The notes under the pieces were generated by a model, which saw only the letters and a list, made by a program, of their open reading frames with translations, was not told the DNA's origin and ran no database searches. From Lentibacillus sp. Marseille-P4043 (lineage in GTDB: Bacteria > Bacillota > Bacilli > Bacillales > Amphibacillaceae), in NCBI RefSeq assembly GCF_900258515.1, contig NZ_LT984884.1:177524-241523 (forward strand): DNA of 64,000 nt, in the 5' to 3' direction. Shown in pieces: positions 13,236 through 59,706 of this stretch (positions within the stretch are counted from its first letter, which is position 1; each line of letters starts with the position of its first letter). Made by a program: the position numbers and the translations under genes.

Positions 13236-13283
13236 ATAGCAAATAAACATGAATTATATCCATAAAACAGCAACAATTCATCC

Positions 13284-13353
13284 TCCCTCATAGTCCAGCA
13301 TTTACGGTGCTGGGTAGAAACTTCCAAGCCATATTCTCAGGAAATATATGAGG
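13284..13353 (-). promoter_or_regulatory. Guanine riboswitch of the pur operon
   Basis: The minus strand reads cctcatata ... ATATGGCTTGGAAGTTTCTACC ... CCGTAAATGCTGGACTATG, the conserved purine aptamer with its two kissing loops. The discriminating base in GGACTAT is C (GATTAT would indicate adenine), so the ligand should be guanine/hypoxanthine. The terminator at 13185-13235 is its platform. It should shut off purE-D when guanine is plentiful. Confidence 0.95.
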
Positions 13354-13405
13354 AACCGTATTCGTTTGTTGTCTTAAGCATAGCAATGATACACGCATCT
13401 GTCAA

Positions 13406-16033: not shown

Positions 16034-16249
16034 TTAATTTAATTCAATTTCGGTTACATTTTGTTCCACAACACGCGCACCTTTAATAGAAACAAGATCG
16101 CCACCAGTGGATGTGAACGCATTTTGTATCATAATTTCATCCATCGCACTTTTTACAGCAGCTGGATCAATTGGATCAATCGGTTTTTCTAGTGAGTATG
16201 TGACAGTTTTACCTTCCTTGTTCAAAAATTTAAGCTCTATCTTTTTCAT
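16034..16249 (-). CDS. DUF2922 family protein
   Basis: 71-residue protein, KKIELKFLNKEGKTVTYSLE at the N-terminus, with the family pattern DPAAVKSAMDEIM and a C-terminal ARVVEQNVTEIEL. It pairs with DUF1659 35 bp upstream, the usual arrangement in Bacillaceae. Role unknown. Confidence 0.8.
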   Translation of the reverse strand: MKKIELKFLNKEGKTVTYSLEKPIDPIDPAAVKSAMDEIMIQNAFTSTGGDLVSIKGARVVEQNVTEIELN

Positions 16250-16283: not shown

Positions 16284-16508
16284 TTAGGCTTGCCTAATTT
16301 CCGAGCTATCTCTGCGTTCAATGTTGTAAAGCGGACGTTCCTGCAATCCAGCAACTGCCTCTGCGATAGCAAACAACTGATCAGCTGTTGCACTTGTCTT
16401 CACATTGTTAAAGCTTTTCGTTTTATAGATTGGCTTTCCAGTTAACACATCCGCCCCATCATCGAGCACTAATCGCAGTGTTGATTGATACGTTTCTGCT
16501 ACTGCCAT
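16284..16508 (-). CDS. DUF1659 family protein
   Basis: 74-residue protein with STLRLVLDDGADVLTGKPIY and FNNVKTSATADQLFAIAEAV, characteristic of DUF1659. A strong GGAGGGG site precedes the ATG. Function is unknown. Directly 5' of it lies the 1.6-kb 20-bp minisatellite. Confidence 0.8.
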   Translation of the reverse strand: MAVAETYQSTLRLVLDDGADVLTGKPIYKTKSFNNVKTSATADQLFAIAEAVAGLQERPLYNIERRDSSEIRQA

Positions 16509-16620: not shown

Positions 16621-18219
16621 CGATATTCCTGCTCTCGTGCCGATGTTCCTGCTTTCGTGCCGATGTTTCTGCTCTCGCGCCGATATTCCTGCTCTCGCGC
16701 CGATGTTTCTGCTCTCGCGCCGATGTTTCTGCTTTCGCGCCGATTTTCCTGCTTTCGTGCCGATGTTTCTGCTCTCGCGCCGATGTTCCTGCTCTTGCGC
16801 CGATGTTCCTGCTTTCGTGCCGATGTTCCTGCTTTCGCGCCGATGTTGCTGCTTTCGCGCCGATATTCCTGCTCTCGTGCCGATGTTCCTGCTCTCGCGC
16901 CGATGTTCCTGCTCTCGCGCCGATATTTCTGCTTTCGCGCCGATGTTTCTGCTTTCGCGCCGATGTTTCTGCTTTCGCGCCGATGTTTCTGCTTTCGCGC
17001 CGATGTTCCTGCTCTCGCGCCGATGTTCCTGCTTTCGCGCCGATGTTTCTGCTCTCGCGCCGATGTTCCTGCTCTCGCGCCGATGTTTCTGCTTTCGCGC
17101 CGATATTTCTGCTTTCGCGCCGATGTTCCTGCTTTCGCGCCGATGTTTCTGCTTTCGCGCCGATGTTTCTGCTTTCGCGCCGATGTTCCTGCTCTCGCGC
17201 CGATGTTTCTGCTTTCGCGCCGATGTTCCTGCTTTCGGGCCGATGTTTCTGCTTTCGCGCCGATGTTCCTGCTCTCGCGCCGATGTTCCTGCTTTCGCGC
17301 CGATGTTTCTGCTCTCGCGCCGATGTTCCTGCTCTCGCGCCGATGTTCCTGCTTTCGCGCCGATGTTCCTGCTTTCGCGCCGATGTTTCTGCTTTCGCGC
17401 CGATGTTGCTGCTTTCGCGCCGATATTCCTGCTCTCGTGCCGATGTTCCTGCTCTCGCGCCGATATTCCTGCTCTCGGGTCGATGTTTCTGCTCTCGCGC
17501 CGATGTTCCTGCTCTTGCGCCGATGTTGCTGCTTTCGTGCCGATGTTGCTGCTCTTGCGCCGATGTTCCTGCTTTCGCGCCGATGTTCCTGCTTTCGCGC
17601 CGATGTTTCTGCTCTCGCGCCGATGTTCCTGCTCTCGCGCCGATGTTTCTGCTCTCGCGCCGATATTCCTGCTCTCGTGCCGATGTTCCTGCTCTCGCGC
17701 CGATATTCCTGCTCTCGGGTCGATGTTTCTGCTCTCGCGCCGATGTTCCTGCTCTCGCGCCGATATTTCTGCTTTCGTGCCGATGTTCCTGCTCTCGGGT
17801 CGATGTTTCTGCTCTCGCGCCGATGTTTCTGCTCTCGCGCCGATGTTTCTGCTTTCGCGCCGATGTTCCTGCTCTCGCGCCGATGTTTCTGCTCTCGTGC
17901 CATGTTTCTGCTTTCGCGCCGATATTTCTGCTTTCGTGCCGATGTTCCTGCTCTTGCGCCGATATTCCTGCTCTCGCGCCGATGTTTCTGCTCTCGCGCC
18001 GATGTTTCTGCTTTCGCGCCGATATTTCTGCTTTCGTGCCGATGTTCCTGCTCTCGCGCCGATGTTCCTGCTCTCGCGCCGATGTTTCTGCTTTCGCGCA
18101 GATGTTCCTGCTCTTGCGCCGATGTTCCTGCTTTCGCGCCGATATTTCTGCTTTCGCGCCGATGTTCCTGCTCTCGCGCCGATGTTTCTGCTCTCGCGCC
18201 GATGTTCCTGCTCTCTTGC
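16621..18219. repeat. 20-bp minisatellite, about 80 units
   Basis: Head-to-tail array with consensus cgatgttcctgctctcgcgc. There are 64 units of exactly 20 bp (16621-17900), one 19-bp unit lacking a g (17901-17919), then 15 more 20-bp units, ending in a degenerate half-unit. Units differ mainly at a few two-state positions (gat-g/a-tt, tt-c/t-ct, gct-c/t-tcg, c/t before the final gc). The array is much richer in GC than its surroundings. Because no unit contains a stop in most frames, several long open frames cross it on both strands; with a unit not divisible by 3 and no start signals, I read the array as non-coding. Confidence 0.95.
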
Positions 18220-18263
18220 CGATATCCCGTATTCTCACGCCCACACGCCCTACATATAAAATT

Positions 18264-18300
18264 AAAAAAGAGTCCTCCGCAATTGCAGAAAACTCTCTTT
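18264..18300 (-). terminator. Terminator of the MOSC gene
   Basis: On the minus strand AGAGT ... TGCAATTGCG ... ACTCT is followed by TTTTTTAAT, directly after the MOSC stop. It separates that gene from the minisatellite. Confidence 0.65.
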
Positions 18301-18301
18301 C

Positions 18302-19012
18302 TCATTCTTTATTAGGGCCATACACACGTTTTTCAACCGAGGAAACGTGCCCCGACAATCGTTTATGTAATGTTCGTTTCCAATTTTCACCTAAATGCGT
18401 ACATGCCGCAAGTTCTTCGGCAAGCTTTAAATCCTTTTTGTGCACATGCATGACTTCGTTACACTTTTTAATCGTCCACTGCGGATATGGCCGTTCCACT
18501 AAACGCAGTTCCGACTTTTCCTGCACGTAACCTTCCTTTAAAACACGAAAATACCAGCCTGTTCGTCCGCTTTTTTGGATGCGCAAAGCAAAGTCCATTA
18601 TCCGAAAACGACGGGCGGGTTTCCAACAAGGCTGACGCGGCTGGGAAACTTGAATAACAGCATCCCCAAGCTCATACGTATCGCCAATACAAACAGAATT
18701 CTCTTCCGCATAATCAACCGCTAGATTTTCTCCCATTGCACCAATGCCTATGGTTTCCAAATCAAGTTCCTGTATCCAATAATCATAATGCATCGTTGGA
18801 TAAGCAAATAGTGCCTTTTCCGGTCCGCCATGATTTTTTGTATCTCCCACTTGATCTCCCATTAATCCTGTTTTTCCTAACCATACGCCCGATGTAACAC
18901 TATTTTTGAAAATACCACTTTCCCACGGCCTGTCCATCCGGTCCGTTGCATCACTGTGACCCATTTTCTTTACCTTTCCGATTAGTAATTTATGTACATA
19001 TGGTGCGTTCAT
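18302..19012 (-). CDS. MOSC domain protein (YiiM-like)
   Basis: 236 residues. The block TKNHGGPEKALFAYPTMHYD and GAMGENLAV ... VCIGDTYELG is the MOSC beta-barrel signature of YiiM/YuaD relatives. QPRQPCWK carries the cysteine proposed to act in sulfur or molybdenum-cofactor chemistry. YiiM relatives reduce N-hydroxylated compounds; the substrate here is unknown. Confidence 0.85.
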   Translation of the reverse strand: MNAPYVHKLLIGKVKKMGHSDATDRMDRPWESGIFKNSVTSGVWLGKTGLMGDQVGDTKNHGGPEKALFAYPTMHYDYWIQELDLETIGIGAMGENLAVDYAEENSVCIGDTYELGDAVIQVSQPRQPCWKPARRFRIMDFALRIQKSGRTGWYFRVLKEGYVQEKSELRLVERPYPQWTIKKCNEVMHVHKKDLKLAEELAACTHLGENWKRTLHKRLSGHVSSVEKRVYGPNKE

Positions 19013-24940: not shown

Positions 24941-25035
24941 ACACTTAGACTAGCAAGCAAGAGTAATGAGAAAGAGAATGTGAGCACAAACAATTTTGCC
25001 TGTGTGTTCAACATACTGCTAACATTACTGAAACC

Positions 25036-25100
25036 TGCGTAGTCAGACCATTTACGGTGGTCTGGTAGAAACTTTGGGCCTTATCCTCCAAATTATACGC
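25036..25100 (-). promoter_or_regulatory. Guanine riboswitch of pbuG
   Basis: The minus strand reads gcgtataatttggaggataa ggcccaaAGTTTCTACCaga CCACCGTAAATGGTCTGACT ACGC. P1 is formed by gcgtat/actacgc and both kissing-loop arms are present. C in TGACTAC indicates guanine specificity. The aptamer is separated from its terminator by about 95 nt. Confidence 0.94.
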
Positions 25101-25190
25101 ATTGCTTTATTTAATTTTTTGTCTCGCTTTAAAGGGTAATAACACCCTACCAAATGATAGTTTACTATTTACGGAAGCTAATGTCAATAG

Positions 25191-28832: not shown

Positions 28833-29762
28833 ATGCCAAGAAAGAAAAAATCAGCGCAATTGTTTCATGAATACTTTGAGGAGTGGATTGAATTGTACAA
28901 AGTGGGGGCGATTCGAGAAGTTACGCTACAAAAGTATTATATGAGTCTACAACGAATTGTAGAGTTAGTCCCCAAATTAAAAATGAGCGAGTTGAACCGA
29001 AAAAGTTATCAAAAATTGCTCAATGATTATGCTCATACTCATGAAAAGCAAACAACGATGGACTTTCATCATCAGCTAAAAGGAGCAATTCTAGATGCAG
29101 TCGATGAAGGACTAATTGAACAAAATCCAACTCGTAAAATCATTATTAAGGGGAAAACGCCAAAAGAGAAAAAAATTAAATTTCTTAATCAGTATGAAGT
29201 GCAAGCGTTGTTAAAGCAATTGAATCTTCAGCATGAGATTAATTGGGATTGGTTCATACTTCTAGTTGCAAAAACAGGGTTGAGATTTTCAGAGGCCCTA
29301 GCACTTACACCAAGTGATTTTGATTTTTCAAAACAAAAGTTAATTGTTGAAAAAACGTGGAATTATAAGGTAACAAAAGGAGAGTTCCAACCGACAAAAA
29401 ATGAATCTTCTAAAAGAAAAATTCAGTTAGACTGGCAAACAGCTATGCAATTTTCTCAACTAATCAAAAATATGGACATTAATAAACCTATCTTTGTAAA
29501 GGGAAGAGTGTTTAATTCTACAGTAAATAATCGATTGAAAGTATTATGCTTAAAGGCAAATATTCCAGTTATTACTATACATGGATTGCGCCATACTCAC
29601 GCTTCATTTCTTCTTTTTGCAGGTGTATCTATTGCAAGTGTTGCAAGAAGGCTTGGACACTCAAGTATGATCACAACACAAGAGACATATTTACACATTA
29701 TTCAGGAATTGGAGAATCAAGATAATGATAAGATAATGAGATATTTATCCACTTTGATGTAA
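28833..29762 (+). CDS. Tyrosine recombinase / integrase of the hsdS switch
   Basis: 309 residues. An N-terminal SAM-like core-binding domain (about 1-110) is followed by the catalytic domain with Arg in KTGLRFSEALALTP, HGLRHTH (H-x-x-R), RRLGHSS and Tyr in TTQETYLHII. It lies between hsdS and the inverted hsdS', the place where phase-variable type I systems encode the enzyme that inverts or swaps TRDs. No other phage gene is adjacent. The likely role is site-specific inversion (inference). Confidence 0.88.
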   Translation: MPRKKKSAQLFHEYFEEWIELYKVGAIREVTLQKYYMSLQRIVELVPKLKMSELNRKSYQKLLNDYAHTHEKQTTMDFHHQLKGAILDAVDEGLIEQNPTRKIIIKGKTPKEKKIKFLNQYEVQALLKQLNLQHEINWDWFILLVAKTGLRFSEALALTPSDFDFSKQKLIVEKTWNYKVTKGEFQPTKNESSKRKIQLDWQTAMQFSQLIKNMDINKPIFVKGRVFNSTVNNRLKVLCLKANIPVITIHGLRHTHASFLLFAGVSIASVARRLGHSSMITTQETYLHIIQELENQDNDKIMRYLSTLM

Positions 29763-29774
29763 GTTGCTATCTAT

Positions 29775-29800
29775 AAAAAGGCACACTTGGTGCCTTTTTA
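29775..29800. terminator. Bidirectional terminator between recombinase and hsdS'
   Basis: aaaaaggcac - acttg - gtgccttttt. It serves the recombinase on the plus strand and includes the stop codon of hsdS' on the minus strand. Confidence 0.85.
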
Positions 29801-31577
29801 AATAAACATTTTTTGTAAATACGCTTTTTTTAACGATTGAAGTTTTTCAAGCTTAGTGTGATGAAGAGTGATAGTGTCGTTAAGTCGTTTGAAAAATTTG
29901 GCTATTTTAGCCTGCTCATCTAAAGAAGGAATTAAAATATCTTGATCTTTTACCAACTCAGAATTGATATTTACTTGTGATCCTGGCTGACCGTATTTTT
30001 GCCATTTTGGTCGATACATTTCTAACCACTGAAACATGAATTCTTTATTGAAATAGGGATTCATAAACACAACAAATCCATCATGAATACCTGTCTTAAT
30101 ATAGTTAATCACAGGTTTTCCCACAGTAGCTGCTATGCTTAGTATTAGGTGTGGTTCATTCAACACCAAGGTTCTTTTTTCGCCCTCTTCAGAAATATGT
30201 TGTTCAACATAATAAATACGACCATCTTGTTCTGTAACATCTGAAATTCTTAACCATCCTATTTCACTTTTTTCATCAAACCATCTTTGATCTTGTATCG
30301 GCCTTGGACTAGCCCCACGACGTATCTCAGATAAATCCCCTAACTTACGCTGTTCCCATCTATAATCAAAATTAGCAAACCTTATCCTCGGCACATCTTC
30401 CTTCTTTTGAGGAAACATCATCTGCAAAAAGCCTTTCTTTAACTGTCTTAATCTACTTACTCTTCGCTGATGAAGAGTGATAGTGTCGTTGAGTCGTTTG
30501 AAAAATTTGGCTATTTTAGCCTGCTCATCTAAAGAAGGAATTAAAATATCTTGATCTTTTACCAACTCAGAATTGATATTTACTTGTGATCCTGGCTGAC
30601 CGTATTTTTGCCATTTTGGTCGATACATTTCTAACCACTGAAACATGAATTCTTTATTGAAATAGGGATTCATAAACACAACAAATCCATCATGAATACC
30701 TGTCTTAATATAGTTAATCACAGGTTTTCCCACAGTAGCTGCTATGCTTAGTATTAGGTGTGGTTCATTCAACACCAAGGTTCTTTTTTCGCCCTCTTCA
30801 GAAATATGTTGTTCAACATAATAAATACGACCATCTTGTTCTGTAACATCTGAAATTCTTAACCATCCTATTTCACTTTTTTCATCAAACCATCTTTGAT
30901 CTTGTATCGGCCTTGGACTAGCCCCACGACGTATCTCAGATAAATCCCCTAACTTACGCTGTTCCCATCTATAATCAAAATTAGCAAACCTTATCCTCGG
31001 CACATCTTCCTTCTTTTGAGGAAACATCATCTGCAAAAAGCCTTTCTTTAACTGTCTTAATCTACTTACTCTTCGCTGATGAAGAGTGATAGTGTCGTTG
31101 AGTCGTTTGAAAAATTTGGCTATTTTAGCCTGCTCATCTAAAGAAGGAATTAAAATATCTTGATCTTTTACCAACTCAGAATTGATATTTACTTGTGATC
31201 CTGGCTGACCGTATTTTTGCCATTTTGGTCGATACATTTCTAACCACTGAAACATGAATTCTTTATTGAAATAGGGATTCATAAACACAACAAATCCATC
31301 GTGAATACCTGTCTTAATATAGTTAATCACAGGTTTTCCCACAGTAGCTGCTATGCTTAGTATTAGGTGTGGTTCATTCAACACCAAGGTTTTTTTTTGG
31401 CCTTCTTCAGAAATATGTTGTTCAACATAATAAATACGACCATCTTGTTCTGTCACATCTGAAATTCTTAACCATCCTATTTCACTTTTTTCGTCAAACC
31501 ATCTTTGATCTTGTATCGGTCTTGGACTAGCCCCACGACGTATCTTAGATAAATCCCCTAACTTACGCTGTTCCCAA
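29798..31577 (-). pseudogene. Silent hsdS' cassette with three tandem TRD units
   Basis: Minus-strand frame open from 31577 to 29798. It encodes three successive copies of one target-recognition domain, each starting at WEQRKLGDLS and containing EIRRGASPRPIQDQRWFDEK and a conserved helical region. The last ends TLHHTKLEKLQSLKKAYLQK MFI. The repeat period is 609 bp (203 codons), in frame, and copies are almost identical. A normal HsdS has two different TRDs. There is no start: a TAA stands 12 nt upstream of the TGG of WEQRKL, and no in-frame ATG with a ribosome binding site follows. It looks like a promoterless donor cassette. Confidence 0.85.
29861..31092 (-). repeat. 609-bp tandem duplications in hsdS'
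   Basis: The same landmark (atgaagagtgatagtgtcgt) occurs at 29861, 30470 and 31079, i.e. exactly 609 bp apart. Sequence between landmarks is nearly base-for-base identical. The 73-bp stretch inverted relative to hsdS 28047-28119 occurs at 30405-30477 and again at 31014-31086. Confidence 0.9.
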
Positions 31578-36852: not shown

Positions 36853-38388
36853 TTATTCCCACTCAATCGTTGCAGGTGGCTTGCTCGTTACATCATACAC
36901 GACTCGATTAATGTGCTCTACTTCATTAACCATTCGTGTCGAAATTTTTTCCAGTATATCCCACGGAATTCGCGCCCAATCAGATGTCATGCCATCAATC
37001 GATGTCACGGCCCGGATCCCGATTGTGTAATCATATGTCCGTGCATCGCCCATCACACCAACACTTCTTATGTTCGGAAGTACGGTGAAATATTGCCAGA
37101 TATCTCGATCTAATCCTGCTTCTGCTATTTCTTCTCGTAAAATAGCATCAGACTCACGTACAATTTCAAGCTTTTCCTCGTCCACTGCACCAAGAACTCG
37201 GATAGCTAAGCCAGGACCTGGAAATGGTTGGCGCCAAACAATATGTTCAGGAATGCCCAGCTGAATCCCAAGCTCACGTACCTCATCCTTGAACAATGTA
37301 TTTAACGGTTCAATTAATTCAAACTGCATGTCTTCCGGAAGTCCGCCAACATTATGATGGGATTTAATTGTTTGTGCTGTCTCTGTCCCGCTTTCAATCA
37401 CATCTGTATACAACGTCCCTTGGGCAAGAAAATCAATGTCTTTTAATTTTGCTGCTTCATCATCAAAAACATAAATAAATTCATTCCCGATTATTTTACG
37501 TTTCTTCTCGGGATCGTCCACGTTTGCTAACTTCGATAAAAAGCGTTCCTTGGCATCGATTTTAATAATATTCATGTGAAACCCATCCGCGAATGTCTCC
37601 ATCACTTCATCGCCTTCATTTTTCCGAAGTAATCCATGATCAACAAATATACATGTTAGCTGGTCACCGATTGCTTTATGAATAAGCGCAGCAACAACCG
37701 ACGAATCAACGCCTCCACTCATGGCACACAATACGTTACGGTTGCCAACCTTTTCTTGAATCTTGGCAACTTCCATATCGATGAAGTTTTCAATTGTCCA
37801 ATCACCAGCACACCCACATGCATCAAAGACAAATTGCTTTAATAGGTGGTTTCCATATTCCGAGTGCCGAACTTCTGGATGAAATTGTACACCGTATAAT
37901 TTCTGTTCGGCATTACTCATTGCTGCGATAGGTGTGGAAGGACTTGTTGCATCAATTTTAAATGATGCCGGAGCTTCCATAACTTTATCGCCATGGCTCA
38001 TCCACACCGTTTGTTCCTTTGGTGTATCGTTAAAAAGTAGTGCATCATGGCTAAGTTCGATAAGTGCTTTGCCATATTCACGATTTTTTGCTTTCTCCAC
38101 TCGGCCACCATAATGCAATGTCATTAATTGCATACCGTAGCATATACCCAAAACAGGTATACCTAAATCAAAAATCTTCTCATCACAGCGGAAGCTATTT
38201 TCATCATATACACTATGTGGACCACCTGATAGGATAATACCTTTAGGATTCATTTGTTTAATTTCATTAGCCGTTAATTTATGTGAATGGAGCTCACTAT
38301 ACACACCAAACTCCCGAATGCGTCTAGTGATCAGCTGATTATATTGACTACCAAAGTCTAATACCAAAATCATTTCATTATTATCCAT
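36853..38388 (-). CDS. guaA: GMP synthase (glutamine-hydrolysing)
   Basis: Aminates XMP to GMP. It has 511 residues. The N-terminal class I amidotransferase has nucleophile Cys in [10 protein letters not shown] (about residue 84) and [10 protein letters not shown]; the ATP pyrophosphatase P-loop is [10 protein letters not shown] near 222; the C-terminal dimerisation domain starts [13 protein letters not shown]. The mRNA leader holds a guanine riboswitch, its terminator and a 21-bp minisatellite, so expression should fall when guanine is high. Confidence 0.97.
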
Positions 38389-38429: not shown

Positions 38430-38798
38430 TGCGCGGGTTATGGCCCGGGTTGCGCGACTTTCGGCCCGGGGTGCGCGACTTATGGCCCGGGGTGCGCGAC
38501 TTTTCGACCGTGGTGCGCGAGTTTCGGCCCGGGGTGCGCGACTTTCCGACCGGGGTGCGCGACTTTTCGACCGTGGTGCGCGAGTTTCGGCCCGGGTTGC
38601 GCGACTTTTCGACCATGGTGCGCGACTTTCCGACCGGGTTGCGCGACTTTCCGACCGAGGTGCGCGACTTTCCGCCCGGGATGCGCGGCTTTTCGACCGT
38701 GGTGCGCGACTTTTCGACCGTGGTGCGCGAGTTTCGGCCCGAGGTGCGCGACTTTCGGCCCGAGTTGCGCGAGTTTCGGCCCGGGGCGCGCGACTTTC
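38430..38798. repeat. 21-bp minisatellite in the guaA leader, 17 units
   Basis: Seventeen units of 21 bp with pattern tgcgcgactttcggcccgggg, plus a partial unit to about 38807. Variants cluster at fixed positions (actttcggccc, acttttcgacc, agtttcggccc; final gg, gt or tgg). The array lies between the riboswitch terminator (38819-38895) and the guaA start, so it is part of the mRNA leader on the minus strand. The unit is a multiple of 3; the minus frame could encode basic heptads such as KSRTPGR from ATG near 38805 to a stop at 38422, but there is no convincing ribosome binding site. Confidence 0.95.
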
Positions 38799-38818
38799 CC
38801 ATCTTTATCGTCCGCCTA

Positions 38819-38895: not shown

Positions 38896-38932
38896 AAGTA
38901 ATCCAAACCATATAGATATTCCGCCTTCATAG

Positions 38933-38992
38933 TCAGGACATTTACGGTGCCCCGGTAGAAACTTTCGAACCTTATTATCGAGGATATACGAA
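38933..38992 (-). promoter_or_regulatory. Guanine riboswitch of guaA
   Basis: The minus strand reads cgtatatcctcgataataag gttcgaaAGTTTCTACCggg GCACCGTAAATGTCCTGACT ATG. Core joining segments and both loops are conserved. C in TGACTAT indicates guanine. No PurBox pair is visible upstream, unlike purE and pbuG. Confidence 0.93.
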
Positions 38993-39072
38993 CGGCGTAA
39001 AAATATTCAATTTGTTCAAGCTAGATTTTTCTGCTTAATATTCTCTTATTCTACTAACATCGGACAACATGG

Positions 39073-50857: not shown

Positions 50858-50878
50858 TAAATCATTCTAAAATCGCAT

Positions 50879-50950
50879 TCACTCATATAATCGCGGGAAT
50901 ATGGCCTGCAAGTTTCTACCGGTTTGCCGTAAACAAACTGACTATGGGTG
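50879..50950 (+). promoter_or_regulatory. Guanine riboswitch of xpt-pbuX
   Basis: cactcatataatcgcgggaa tatggcctgcAAGTTTCTACC ggtttgCCGTAAAcaaactg ACTATGGGTG: very close to the B. subtilis xpt aptamer, with P1 cactcat/atgggtg and C in TGACTAT for guanine. The 170 nt to xpt should contain the expression platform. I see cacggtct...agaccgt (51058-51093) but cannot resolve a clean terminator/antiterminator pair. Confidence 0.95.
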
Positions 50951-51115
50951 GCAATGGACGGGAAAAAATCATGGTTCACACTTACATGGTTGCTTTTCTA
51001 TTTCTTTCGATATTACAGCTCGAAGGACGTTGCTCCACTCATAACATGAATGGATGCACGGTCTTTGGGCTTTTTTAATGAATCGAAGACCGTAACATAA
51101 CGAGAGGGGAAATAG

Positions 51116-53153: not shown

Positions 53154-53540
53154 TTAATCAAGGTCTATATCTACAATTCCACCTGTATTCACATCAACTT
53201 CGACTTCATATTTGCTGCCTTGTGATGTTATAATTTCCACCTCATAAACCTGCATACCATTTTTTGAATCTAATTCCACCTTCACTACTTGCCCCGGTAC
53301 TTGCTGCAATGCTATGTCCATCGCTTCTTCAATTGTTATTTGACGATACCAATGAGCCCCATTTGGAGCAAATCCATACGGGTTTTGATTTGGATTTGGC
53401 CAATTCGGGTTTTGCCAATTTGGATCCTGCCAATTCGGATTTCCCCAATTTGAGTTCTGCCAATTCGGATTCTCCCAATTTGGATTTTGCCAATTCGGAT
53501 TCCAGGATTGGTTTGGATTATTCCAACTGTAATTGTACAT
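53154..53540 (-). CDS. PepSY-domain protein with Asn-Trp-rich repeats
   Basis: About 128 residues from ATG 53540 (preceded by aaggagaagggg). Residues 5-55 are short repeats of N-P-N-W-Q/E/G type (about ten copies of a 4-5 residue unit). The C-terminal half is a PepSY-like domain (ITIEEAMDIALQQVPGQVVK VELDSKNGMQVYEVEI). There is no signal peptide, so a spore-coat or cytoplasmic location is more likely than secretion. The repeat is encoded by near-identical codons and may vary in length. Confidence 0.75.
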   Translation of the reverse strand: MYNYSWNNPNQSWNPNWQNPNWENPNWQNSNWGNPNWQDPNWQNPNWPNPNQNPYGFAPNGAHWYRQITIEEAMDIALQQVPGQVVKVELDSKNGMQVYEVEIITSQGSKYEVEVDVNTGGIVDIDLD

Positions 53541-55416: not shown

Positions 55417-55617
55417 TTATCTAAAACTCTTATCTTCTAATTGCTTATTAATAATCTGAATAGCCCAACGAACGAGTTCATCATGATTTAACTCCTCTTC
55501 TTCACTCCATAAACATGTAGATAATAGTCTATCTTCTACTTTAATCATCACTTCCTGAGGTAAATACCTGTGAAAGAAATACTTAGCTATGCGATTTTCG
55601 ACCTCTATTGGAATCAT
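55417..55617 (-). CDS. Small acidic protein behind istB
   Basis: 66 residues, IPIEVENRIAKYFFHRYLPQ E... and WSEEEELNHDELVRWAIQII N. It overlaps the istB stop by 4 nt, inside the element. Similar short frames accompany some IS21 relatives. Function unknown. Confidence 0.5.
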   Translation of the reverse strand: MIPIEVENRIAKYFFHRYLPQEVMIKVEDRLLSTCLWSEEEELNHDELVRWAIQIINKQLEDKSFR

Positions 55618-56360
55618 TTGGGCACCGCCAATCCATGACGTTCTCTCATTGAAACTTCTCCATCTATCATAATTTGATAGGAGTCGTGGATAATACGATC
55701 TAAGATTGCCTCGGCAATGGTCTCATTTCCCAATTTTATATGCCATCCATTGGGGTCGATTTGTGAACAGAAAACTGTTGAAGCCACTTTATGGCGAGCT
55801 TCAGTAATCTCTAACAAGATTGCCGCCTCATCTGTTGTTAAATCTGTTAGTAGCCATTCGACCAATATGAGTAAATCGACTTTCGTATATTTTTTAATGA
55901 TTTTTCGGTAACTTCCATCAGCTGCTATTTTTGCGAGCGACAATTCATCTAGTAATTCTGGTAACCTAATATATTTTACCTTGTAGCAAGCAGATATTCC
56001 AAATGCAGTAGCTAAGAATGTCTTTCCGGAACCTGTAGGTCCTTTTAGGATAATGCTATGACAGTCACGGATATAGGTACAGCTAGCTAGCTTTAATATC
56101 AACTCTTTATCTAGTTTACGATCCTCATGATATTCTATATCTTCAATAGATGCATTTGAATTTAAAAAAGTGGCTGATTTTATTAACCGTTGAAGTTTAT
56201 TGTTCTGGCGTCGAGATTGTTCTATGTCAACGAGTAAAGAAAAACGATCTTCAAAACTCATCTTTTGGAATTCCTTGTTCGAAGCTTGCTCTTTATACGC
56301 TTCGGCCATGCCACTTAATTTCATTTCATGTAATTTTGTTAACGTTTGTTCATTTATCAT
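55614..56360 (-). CDS. istB: IS21-family ATP-binding helper protein
   Basis: About 248 residues from ATG 56360, preceded by GGAGGT. It is an AAA+ ATPase that assists IstA: Walker A is LKGPTGSGKTFLA near residue 110, plus the N-terminal TLTKLHEMKLSGMAEAYKEQ. The Walker B region reads VDLLILVEWLL, so the usual acidic D-D/E pair appears changed to LVEW, which may impair activity. It overlaps the istA remnant by 11 nt. Confidence 0.85.
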   Translation of the reverse strand: MINEQTLTKLHEMKLSGMAEAYKEQASNKEFQKMSFEDRFSLLVDIEQSRRQNNKLQRLIKSATFLNSNASIEDIEYHEDRKLDKELILKLASCTYIRDCHSIILKGPTGSGKTFLATAFGISACYKVKYIRLPELLDELSLAKIAADGSYRKIIKKYTKVDLLILVEWLLTDLTTDEAAILLEITEARHKVASTVFCSQIDPNGWHIKLGNETIAEAILDRIIHDSYQIMIDGEVSMRERHGLAVPK

Positions 56361-57929
56361 TTTGTTTACCTCCGTAATATGCAGCTCCACGTGTGAAACC
56401 ATAGTTATTTTGATTTATTTCTGTTTTGCGTTTTAGTTCTTGCTCCGCATCATTCTTTTTATTGTTCTTTAATATGGTTTGAATACTTTTGACGGTTGGT
56501 CGTTTAGTCATTGAAATAACCATCTTACATGCACGTTCAATTTCATATTTTGAGTAACGTTGCTCAGACTTTTTTAAAGAGAATATTGACTGTAATGCTA
56601 GTTTTTCAGTTTGGGAAGTATCGAGAATGTACTGAACCACGTCCACCGTTGATGTTCCCATACTCTCAGCCCATTCAATTGCTGCTTCAGGTGTCTGCTC
56701 TACAAATAATTTATGATTATCAGGCATATGATCATGAATAGTGGATAATTGACCAAACTTCCCATATAATCGTTTGTGAGAAGCTATTCGCATATGATTA
56801 AAATGAACTTCAACTAAGTCATCTGAAACTCTTACGTCCACTTCTTGATTGATATATTCGTATGGAACCGAATAAAACATACTTTCTACAGATACGTGAT
56901 AATCAGGACGCACTTTCACAGTATTCCACTTAGACATTTTGTAAGGTGTGATTGGAAGAGGAGAAAGGGCAAATTTCTCCTCTTCTTCAAATGCTGATAA
57001 GCGACAACCTTTTTTGCGAGTAAAAGGTCGCTCGTTAAATTCTTCTAATTTCATCCAGACTTCTTCATTCAACTCATCAATACTGAAGCATTGAGTATTT
57101 CTTAATGCCGCGATAATCCATGTAGAAATAGCCCCAACAGCCCCTTCGACAGCTGCTTTGTCTTTCGGTGAACGAACGCGTGCAGGCATAATCACAGTAT
57201 TATAGTAATCTGCCATTTCTTTGTAAGTAGGATTTAAGATTAACTCCTTCGAAGTATGTTTTGTCACACCAGTTTTAAGATTTAATGAAAAGATTTACAT
57301 TACAAATTATCCGGAACCAAGGTTTCGGGAACTCCATCAAAATATTCGAATGCATGGATATGAGCAGTAAGCCAATTAGGCGATTTCATATCTAAAAATG
57401 CTTCCACATAACTTAATTGGCTGTAAGGCAATGTCGCAATAAAAACATACGCTGGAATTGTTTCACCTGTTGAACGATCTATAATGTACAGTGTGGAACC
57501 AGCCCAATCCACCTCCATAATTTCGCCAGGCTTTCTGCGAATTGGCATCGTCAGTTTGTATTTCTTTGCGTATTTCCCATACTTCTCACAAAAAGTTCGA
57601 TAAGCATAAGGAATCTTCCCACTCTCACGTGCTTCAGCGGCATACTCAAAATGCAGTAAGGACAAGGTGACATTCTTTTTTTGTAACTCCTTATGCACTT
57701 CTTCCCAATCAATTGGAAAGTATCCCTTCTCAACAGCTTGTTTCTCTGGAAAGAGAGACGTCTCCAGCCATTGATTGGTCATGGTATCGCTCAAGCTTTC
57801 CACACCAAGCTTCTTAGCACGTTGCACAACCTCGGAGACTGTATTCCTTGTGTGACCAGTGCTAGAACTGATTGTCCTTTGGCTAACCCCTTCAAAATAC
57901 ATCTCCAGGATTTTACGGCAATTAACCAT
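56350..57929 (-). pseudogene. istA: IS21 transposase, disrupted
   Basis: The N-terminal part (57929-57300) holds the HTH (SQRTISSSTGHTRNTVSEVV) and DDE-domain start EVDWAGSTLYIID, ending at GVPETLVPDNL and stop. The C-terminal part (57267-56350) resumes at TKHTSKELILNPTYKEMADY, with MPARVRSPKDKAAVEGAVG (the catalytic Glu region). Removing 26 nt between 57271 and 57300 would rejoin the frame as PDN-LKTGVTKHTS. The transposase is thus inactivated by a small insertion. Confidence 0.85.
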
Positions 57930-58291: not shown

Positions 58292-59038
58292 ATGCGTTAT
58301 TTGAATACGGGTTTACTATCAACTTGGATTATTGCTTCACTTCGCAATGAAAAGTTCTTTTCCTTGACCGAACTAAACAAAGCAATTAAAGAGAAATTAG
58401 ATATGGTGAATACAAAACCTTTCCAAAAGAGAAAAGGGAATAGGCAGGAAGCGTTCTTAGAAGAAGAAAAATTCGCACTGGTCCCCCTGCCTCATTCACC
58501 ATATGAGATTGCGAGCTGGGCAAAGACCGTTGTCCAGCCTGACTATCATGTGAAAATTGATAATAACTATTATTCTGTTCCCTATGATTATATCAAATGT
58601 ACGGTTGACGTTCGAGTAACGAGAAATATAATTGAAGTATTTTATAAGCATATCCGGATTGCTTCGCACAAAAGATCAAATAAGTCAGGTGGGGATTTCA
58701 GTACGATTCCTGATCATATGCCTAGGGATCATAGAAAGTATGCTTCATTCGATAAGGATTTTATATTAGAGTGGGGTGCCACAACTGGCCCGTCCACCTT
58801 ATTAACAATTGAAAGAATCCTAGAATCTTATCCTACGGAAAAACAGGGATTGAAATCTACCTATGCATTGATGAAACTTGCAGATAAATACTCTATCGAA
58901 CGCATAGAGAAGGCGTGTGAAAGAGTATTGTCTTATACGCCACGACTAAAACTAAAAAGCATACAAACCATCCTAAAAACAGGACATGATAAATTGCCAT
59001 TAGAGGAAACGAGCAAACAAATGAACACACAAAAATGA
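58292..59038 (+). pseudogene. istA: Second IS21 transposase, 5'-truncated
   Basis: The C-terminal half of an IstA diverged from the first one (STWIIASLRNEKFFSLTELN aligns with its STWIIAALRNTQCFSIDELN). Similarity begins near 58308; the HTH and most of the catalytic domain are missing. It points in the opposite direction to the first element, so the two IS21 copies are back-to-back by their istA ends. Codons upstream (58085-58300) carry hairpin sequence gcacctcctt/aagaggtgc. Confidence 0.8.
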
Positions 59039-59087
59039 CAACGCTTACAGTTTACTCGTGGAGCTGCTTACTACGGAGGGAATAATA

Positions 59088-59280
59088 ATGACAACTGATA
59101 ACACCTTAACGAAATTAAATGAAATGAGAATGTCTGCGATGGCAGAAACATGTAGAGAGCAATTAAGAAATCCGGAATATCAAGAACTATCTTTTGAAGA
59201 TCGATTTGCCTTACTGGTTGATATTGAATGGTCCAGAAGGCAAAACAACAAACTTGACCGCCTAATCAAACAAGCGGAAT
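59088..59280 (+). pseudogene. istB: IstB N-terminal fragment
   Basis: TTDNTLTKLNEMRMSAMAET CREQLRN and SFEDRFALLVDIEWSRRQNN KLDRLIKQAEF match the first 65 residues of IstB. Similarity stops sharply at 59280 (gcggaattc), where unrelated DNA begins. The downstream part of the second IS21 element is deleted. Confidence 0.8.
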
Positions 59281-59706
59281 TCAGGTTCTTCCTTAACTTC
59301 TTCCTTAGGTTCTTCTTTCTTTTCTTCACCAGCTACATCACCGTTGCCGTCAATATCCTTACCACTGGCTGTTTCAGTTTCCTCTATGATATTATCAAGT
59401 TCTTCTTTAGCCTCGTCTACCTTTTCCAATTCTTCAACAGGGCCACTTTCCTCAACAGCGTCATTATTAGTAGTTGTGGTAGTTTCCTCACCTGACGTTG
59501 CTATTCCACCTATAACGCGTGGTGGCCCCTTTTGTTTTTAGGTGCTGACGGATAATACCAAGAGCCTCTCCAGTTCCGCAGCAAGGATCAATCAATTTGA
59601 TTCGTTCACTACTAGTATGTTTAACCGTTGTTGATACGTTTTATTTCATCAATCGGTGTGGAAAATAACCACCTTTTAATTCGGATGCAAGTCGTGCCAT
59701 ATCACT
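59265..59706 (-). pseudogene. Decayed DUF6094-like methyltransferase gene and acidic tail
   Basis: On the minus strand, ATG near 59705 gives MARLASELKGGYFP, then a frameshift. Another frame continues PIDEIKRINNG, and after a stop comes KHTSSERIKLIDPCCGTGEA LGIIRQHLKTKGA, with the SAM-binding DPCCGTGEAL motif. A last frame gives IGGIATSGEETTTTTNNDAV ... DIDGNGDVAGEEKKEEPKEE, very acidic. It resembles the DUF6094 class of methyltransferase-like proteins found on phages and integrative elements. Several frameshifts and stops: a pseudogene abutting the IstB fragment. Confidence 0.6.

Follow-up and report, generated by a model that had tools for sequence, protein, structure and literature searches.

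Between a gene for a MOSC-domain protein and a DUF1659-DUF2922 gene pair, the chromosome of Lentibacillus sp. Marseille-P4043 carries a long array of 20-bp tandem repeats. The array lies in the 64,000-nucleotide stretch analyzed here (the window; contig NZ_LT984884.1, positions 177,524 to 241,523). A preliminary description of the sequence had placed it 5' of the gene pair and behind a terminator; Pfam matches and an intrinsic-terminator-like hairpin agree with this placement (Table 1). By eye, similar hairpins precede the arrays at two other loci, L144 and L145.

Table 1. Positions and assignments of the arrays and neighboring features (window coordinates, except where prefixed C1).
Feature	Position	Strand	Basis and remarks
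DUF2922 gene	16034..16249	-	Pfam
DUF1659 gene, on the opposite flank of the array from the MOSC gene	16284..16508	-	Pfam
Family A array, 20-bp unit, ~81 units	16621..18241	-	Tandem Repeats Finder and unit parse; motif/purine-rich strand GGCGCGARAGCAGRAACATC on minus, the leading strand here
Intrinsic-terminator-like hairpin, 3' of the MOSC gene, directly ahead of the array	18264..18301	-	Terminator prediction
MOSC-domain gene (YiiM-type)	18302..19012	-	Pfam; orthologues in 6/6 relatives searched
Family B array, between purine riboswitch and guaA; 21-bp unit whose minus strand reads GTCGCGC	38430..38799	-	Tandem Repeats Finder, Rfam
N1 gene, NERD protein, 369 aa, between two family A arrays	C1:1321626-1322735 (1.32 Mb)		

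Analysis with Tandem Repeats Finder (TRF) revealed a period of 20 and 80.2 copies at 16621-18223; looser settings extended the array to the limits given in Table 1. Parsing yielded 81 units, 79 of exactly 20 bp, one of 19 bp and one of 21 bp, bearing out the regular period first described and refining its count. The array is also richer in GC than its surroundings, as had been noted: 58.2% versus 39.1% for the window. Recurring two-state substitutions at fixed columns, another feature of the preliminary description, were evident in counts over 79 units of the purine-rich strand: column 8 was G in 44 and A in 35, column 14 was G in 42, A in 33 and C in 4, column 17 was C in 64, T in 14 and A in 1, and column 4 was G in 62, A in 13 and C in 4. 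We consider the array genuine: an assembly artefact is unlikely because the chromosome contains 53 other arrays of the same family and matches occur in 20 of the 158 other genomes searched in the taxonomic family.

Dispersal and orientation of the repeats

Using the first 100 bases of the array as a BLAST query, 269 matches were obtained in its own genome (G000). TRF was run on 59 stretches around BLAST matches plus the window, giving 77 rows: 54 arrays of the window type (family A, defined by the motif AACATC) and 14 of a 21-bp type (family B), with 8 rows that lacked both motifs and 1 that was a duplicate being dropped. As 40 of 85 candidates were scored, the counts are lower bounds: the chromosome holds at least 54 family A arrays and, with a stricter motif that retained 11 of the 14, at least 11 of family B. 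Across all family A arrays, 1238 of 1412 units were 20 bp long and 144 were 21 bp. The family A arrays other than that of the window contain 1159 units of 20 bp. Read on the purine-rich strand, columns 1, 8, 13, and 14 of these were A or G in 1146-1156, so that the two-state columns 8 and 14 of the window array are almost invariably A/G elsewhere too. Column 3 was C in 1145 units (99%) and columns 5-7 were CGA in 90-96% each. Columns 15-20, AACATC, were conserved as well, but this is circular for a motif used to select the family.

In place of the strain comparison proposed in the preliminary description, relatives were searched with one genome per species, so that different species were compared. 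Matches were found in 21 of 159 genomes and 8 of 46 genera of the taxonomic family, with units that are alike between species yet species-distinct. At the MOSC-DUF1659 site, three of six relatives examined (G147, G002, and G001) carry a 20- or 21-bp array of different sequence. A site beside mbl holds arrays in G002, G147, G055, and G001; a site with LysM and NERD genes holds family B in G000 and another family, C, in G001; and further clear shared sites were found with G049, G095, and G002. Of the genes next to arrays, 12 of 35 from G001 matched an array-adjacent gene of G000, as did 8 of 33 from G055, several of these being weak paralogue matches. Some intergenic sites thus persist across species while the sequence of the 20-21-bp unit differs. 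This turnover at near-constant unit length is in line with the original remark that the period is maintained while the sequence changes.

Tandem repeats of a constant 20-21 nt have been described in Bacillus and other bacteria and are reported to lack a known function or partner (Subirana & Messeguer, PMC8161180). The window array belongs to this class: its unit length is kept with few indels, it is non-coding, and its genome contains several families (A and B), each with a short shared signal. The class is therefore a known one, and the initial statement that no named system explains the array holds for the mechanism but not for the class. In PMC8161180, transcription of the repeats is suggested rather than used as a defining trait, sequences are reported as species-specific without a known protein partner, and a search for strand, orientation and replication did not find the word 'orientation'. 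By contrast, the repeats studied here have a core common to several genera, replication-linked orientation, sites that persist with other units, and linkage to NERD genes. The 52-nt Bacillus repeats, with units of 51-53 nt, differ from the window array in period. Like CRISPR-Cas loci, some of the present arrays adjoin nuclease genes; unlike CRISPR arrays with their unique spacers, they consist of spacerless head-to-tail 20-bp units, there are dozens per genome, and the window array has MOSC and DUF1659/DUF2922 genes as neighbors.

Polarity was evaluated using TRF arrays and ORF (open reading frame)-based gene calls in three chromosomes, with dnaA at 853856 (G000), 346 (G001), and 3213777 (G055). 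The motif was on the leading strand in 48 of 54 family A and 10 of 11 family B arrays (stricter motif) in G000, 14 of 19 family C arrays in G001, and 18 of 19 arrays in G055. Family B is about half purine, making the sign of its motif strand arbitrary and only its consistency informative. The total, 90 of 103, departs from the bias of genes (P = 1.6e-4 against 0.72; 240 of 337 genes longer than 100 aa in the G000 stretches were leading) and from parity (P = 1.2e-15 against 0.5). Polarity tracks replication and not gene direction, because arrays in convergent gaps (29/33) and in gaps between tandem lagging genes (9/10) follow it as well; the other contexts gave 13/15 (divergent), 31/36 (tandem leading), and 8/9 (unclassified). 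The agreement of the lagging gaps led us to reject gene direction as the explanation of orientation. GC skew had the expected sign in 53 of 59 stretches, and three of the seven G000 polarity exceptions were in stretches with reversed skew. Counted by hand, leading-strand BLAST matches, some of merely 30-50 bp, numbered 12 of 14 in G045 and 4 of 4 in contig 1 of G147. Orientation by hairpin formation, in which one strand would fold better as single-stranded DNA, was also rejected: DNA folding did not separate the two strands, and in 19 of 54 family A arrays the more stable one was the pyrimidine-rich strand.

With respect to placement, convergent gaps were preferred (23 of 64 classified arrays versus 21 of 133 background gene pairs), and terminators were found at 38 of 78 gene ends facing arrays versus 29 of 129 control ends (gaps >=40). 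The arrays of G000 become sparser toward the terminus: from origin to terminus they fell into six bins of 9, 20, 7, 22, 5, and 2, the last representing 2 of 65 in an incomplete census.

NERD genes beside the arrays

The gene next to mbl and that of the LysM site each code for a NERD protein (PF08378); the two products, N1 and N2, share 30.5% identity. Pfam scores were 74.4 bits for N1, 73.4 for N2, and 59.6 for N3, a further NERD protein, against a gathering cutoff of 22.1. The linked NERD proteins are predicted to combine a PD-(D/E)XK nuclease, with the core fold and acidic/Lys active site, a Zn ribbon and a winged helix. Three dispersed families each include an array next to a NERD gene, which in G000 is N1 for A and N2 for B, and in G001 an N2-like gene for C. 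Beside the third NERD gene of G000 (L238; C1 1275381-1276217) is a 21-bp array with the family B-like unit AAAGTCGC.

NERD genes are physically linked to 20-21-bp arrays in many relatives of Bacillus. All 30 N1 loci listed, from 30 genomes, had an array of this class within ~1.5 kb, on both sides in 21. Among weaker NERD matches (32-40% identity), 18 of 20 loci had arrays versus 2 of 20 stretches 15-60 kb away; these loci were picked before their flanks were seen, not strictly in list order. In other families of the order, loci from 30 genomes had arrays in 29 cases, some weak and one with a doubtful 172-bp period. Controls ~40 kb from the latter gave 2 of 20, one of which held a NERD gene and was left out, bringing all controls to 3 of 39. 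Overall, arrays were beside 77 of 80 NERD loci chosen by protein, or 68 of 80 with strict scoring, and the median distance from NERD match to nearest array was 67 bp (75 loci). For the three sets in the same order, arrays lay outside ORFs at 30/30, 18/20, and 27/30 loci (strict: 30/30, 16/20, and 22/30; control, 2/20). In a gap-matched comparison using strict arrays, 98 of 137 NERD-flanking gaps (48/55, 22/37, and 28/45) contained an array; the corresponding figures were 2 of 269 for random gaps and 1 of 49 for those within control stretches. A single rule for array-covered ORFs was applied on both sides; applied on the NERD side only, it gives 2 of 268 random gaps. At one locus (L228, in G063), the NERD gene is flanked on both sides by arrays of 22 bp rather than 20-21 bp.

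The repeat motif varies with the type of NERD gene. ATCRRC was present at 19 of 30 N1-type loci and was antisense to the gene in all 19; among 22 other NERD loci it was antisense in 4, a count that leaves out L104 (which is N1), and sense in 2. Similarly, of 29 N1 arrays that were clearly biased, 28 had the purine-rich strand antisense to the gene; in the other two sets this strand was sense in 12 of 14 arrays and in 13 of 19. Over 50 loci, 5-mer content of the arrays correlated with NERD similarity (r = 0.476), a value reached in none of 2000 permutations. N1 arrays from different genomes had a likeness of 0.209 (0.06 with one flipped) versus 0.128 between N1 and other arrays within one genome (6 pairs). 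Linked descent could be the cause of this matching.

Proteins with the NERD domain include SmdA and PglW. These share that domain with the proteins described here, which add the Zn ribbon and winged helix and are tied to 20-21-bp arrays. NERD is named among putative CRISPR auxiliary genes (PMC10910872). A role in defence was rejected, PADLOC and NCBIfam giving only weak partial similarity to PglW, PDC-S64, MkoA, and MADS6. A search of PDB sequences returned weak ribosomal zinc-ribbon matches and nothing else, and no relatives of the NERD proteins were found in viral contigs (searched with one peptide pattern) or plasmids. Among the papers listed by the literature searches, none connected NERD with bacterial tandem repeats; within these searches, the NERD link and the replication polarity are new.

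Proposed mechanism and alternatives

We regard N1 as the most likely trans-acting partner of the family A arrays, recognizing the repeats and driving their turnover, and the window array as a single copy of a satellite that is non-coding, dispersed, and acts or evolves at the DNA level; jointly, we give these proposals an even chance. The winged helix of N1 would read AACATC-RRC-SCGA, the directional core shared by the units, and its PD-(D/E)XK domain would nick or cut there. Through repair and replication restart inside the repeats, units would then be gained, lost, or copied, either in one array or from one array to another. The expected outcome would be a unit of fixed length whose sequence is homogenized in each genome and drifts between species while the sites persist. 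A strand-specific nick would have different outcomes on leading and lagging templates, which would account for the orientation bias. The observations cover dispersal, polarity, shared sites, NERD linkage, repeat motifs that vary with NERD type, and folds resembling those of nucleases and winged helices, whereas binding, cutting, and copying, as well as any benefit to the cell, are inferred. With slightly less than even confidence, we extend the proposal to a two-part chromosomal system of Bacillales not previously described, in which directional arrays would occupy fixed intergenic sites and be spread and renewed, in register with replication, by winged-helix NERD nucleases, each type with its cognate 20-21-bp repeat.

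REP/BIME sequences and RAYT provide a precedent: dispersed extragenic repeats flank a gene of one nuclease-like family, RAYT being a Y1 (HUH) transposase-like protein. The present repeats are likewise extragenic and dispersed and flank a gene from a single nuclease-like family; they differ in forming head-to-tail arrays and in that the linked gene is NERD by Pfam. If the proposal holds, bacteria would have a satellite system that is driven by a protein, of a similar kind to REP-RAYT, and whose polarity is tied to replication. The tight physical link to one nuclease family gives the satellites, called enigmatic and without a known protein partner in PMC8161180, a candidate, and makes the question testable through a single protein.

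One comparison weighs against a general role of NERD proteins in dispersal: in 400 kb sampled from each set, five NERD-less and five NERD-bearing genomes contained 3 and 2 non-ORF arrays, respectively, with 7 strict arrays, inside ORFs or not, in the 800 kb. Because the two samples are alike, dispersal looks lineage-specific and the presence of NERD alone insufficient. The arrays might also be passive minisatellites, generated by slippage and unequal recombination in dispensable gaps, with a polarity that reflects strand composition and NERD genes that happen to occupy permissive gaps. Consistent with this are their intergenic sites, often behind terminators, the agreement of the purine-rich strand with leading-strand bias and of three exceptions with reversed GC skew, and a five-unit run that occurs twice in the window array (matched in 3 of 300 shuffles). 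Such an origin is a serious possibility but an unlikely one, given the excess of strict arrays in NERD-flanking over random gaps, the unequal conservation of columns (a circular argument in the case of AACATC, though not in that of columns 3 and 5-7), and the polarity of family B although purines make up about half of most of its arrays.

That the arrays are directional leading-strand signals of the Chi or KOPS kind, read for chromosome maintenance by a translocase or an enzyme of repair, whether a NERD protein or another, appears improbable to us. The polarity in all gene contexts counted and the non-palindromic core (by eye) fit such signals. However, KOPS are not scarce near the terminus, in contrast to the arrays, and about one array in eight is reversed. 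The Chi sequence of Bacillus subtilis is AGCGG, which occurred in just 94 of 1238 20-bp units; identity with Chi of the Bacillus type was rejected on this basis. We attach very little weight to function as repeat RNAs, which Subirana & Messeguer suggest. For B. coagulans, transcription of the 52-nt repeats has been reported (PMC8625621), and the array in the guaA leader would be transcribed, but terminators are about twice as frequent before arrays as after control genes, orientation tracks replication rather than transcription, and no Rfam family reached threshold over the window array. Least credible is a repetitive protein, which the preliminary description had already judged improbable. 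Several frames are open across the array on both strands, because the strands are T-poor and A-poor. The 20-bp unit shifts the frame, a search with one frame gave none of 467 candidates at E <= 0.001, and orthologous sites hold 20- or 21-bp units of different sequence.

Other features of the window

The family B array of the window lies in a leader: a purine riboswitch is at 38910-39011 and guaA starts at 38388, such that the array would belong to the guaA transcript. This riboswitch is one of four in the window (Rfam RF00167), the others being at 13271-13371, 25020-25120, and 50863-50964. In contrast to the intergenic arrays, a 15-bp repeat at 53388-53501 is within the open frame of a small protein (NPNW-type repeats). 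By eye, an HsdS-like ORF at 29798-31456 contains near-identical tandem segments and has as neighbors an ORF resembling an integrase (28833-29762) and genes like those of type I restriction; the region looks like a specificity-switching locus. Finally, apparent IS21-type istA/istB genes, partly fragmented, were recognized by eye at 55614-57929 and 58292-59495.
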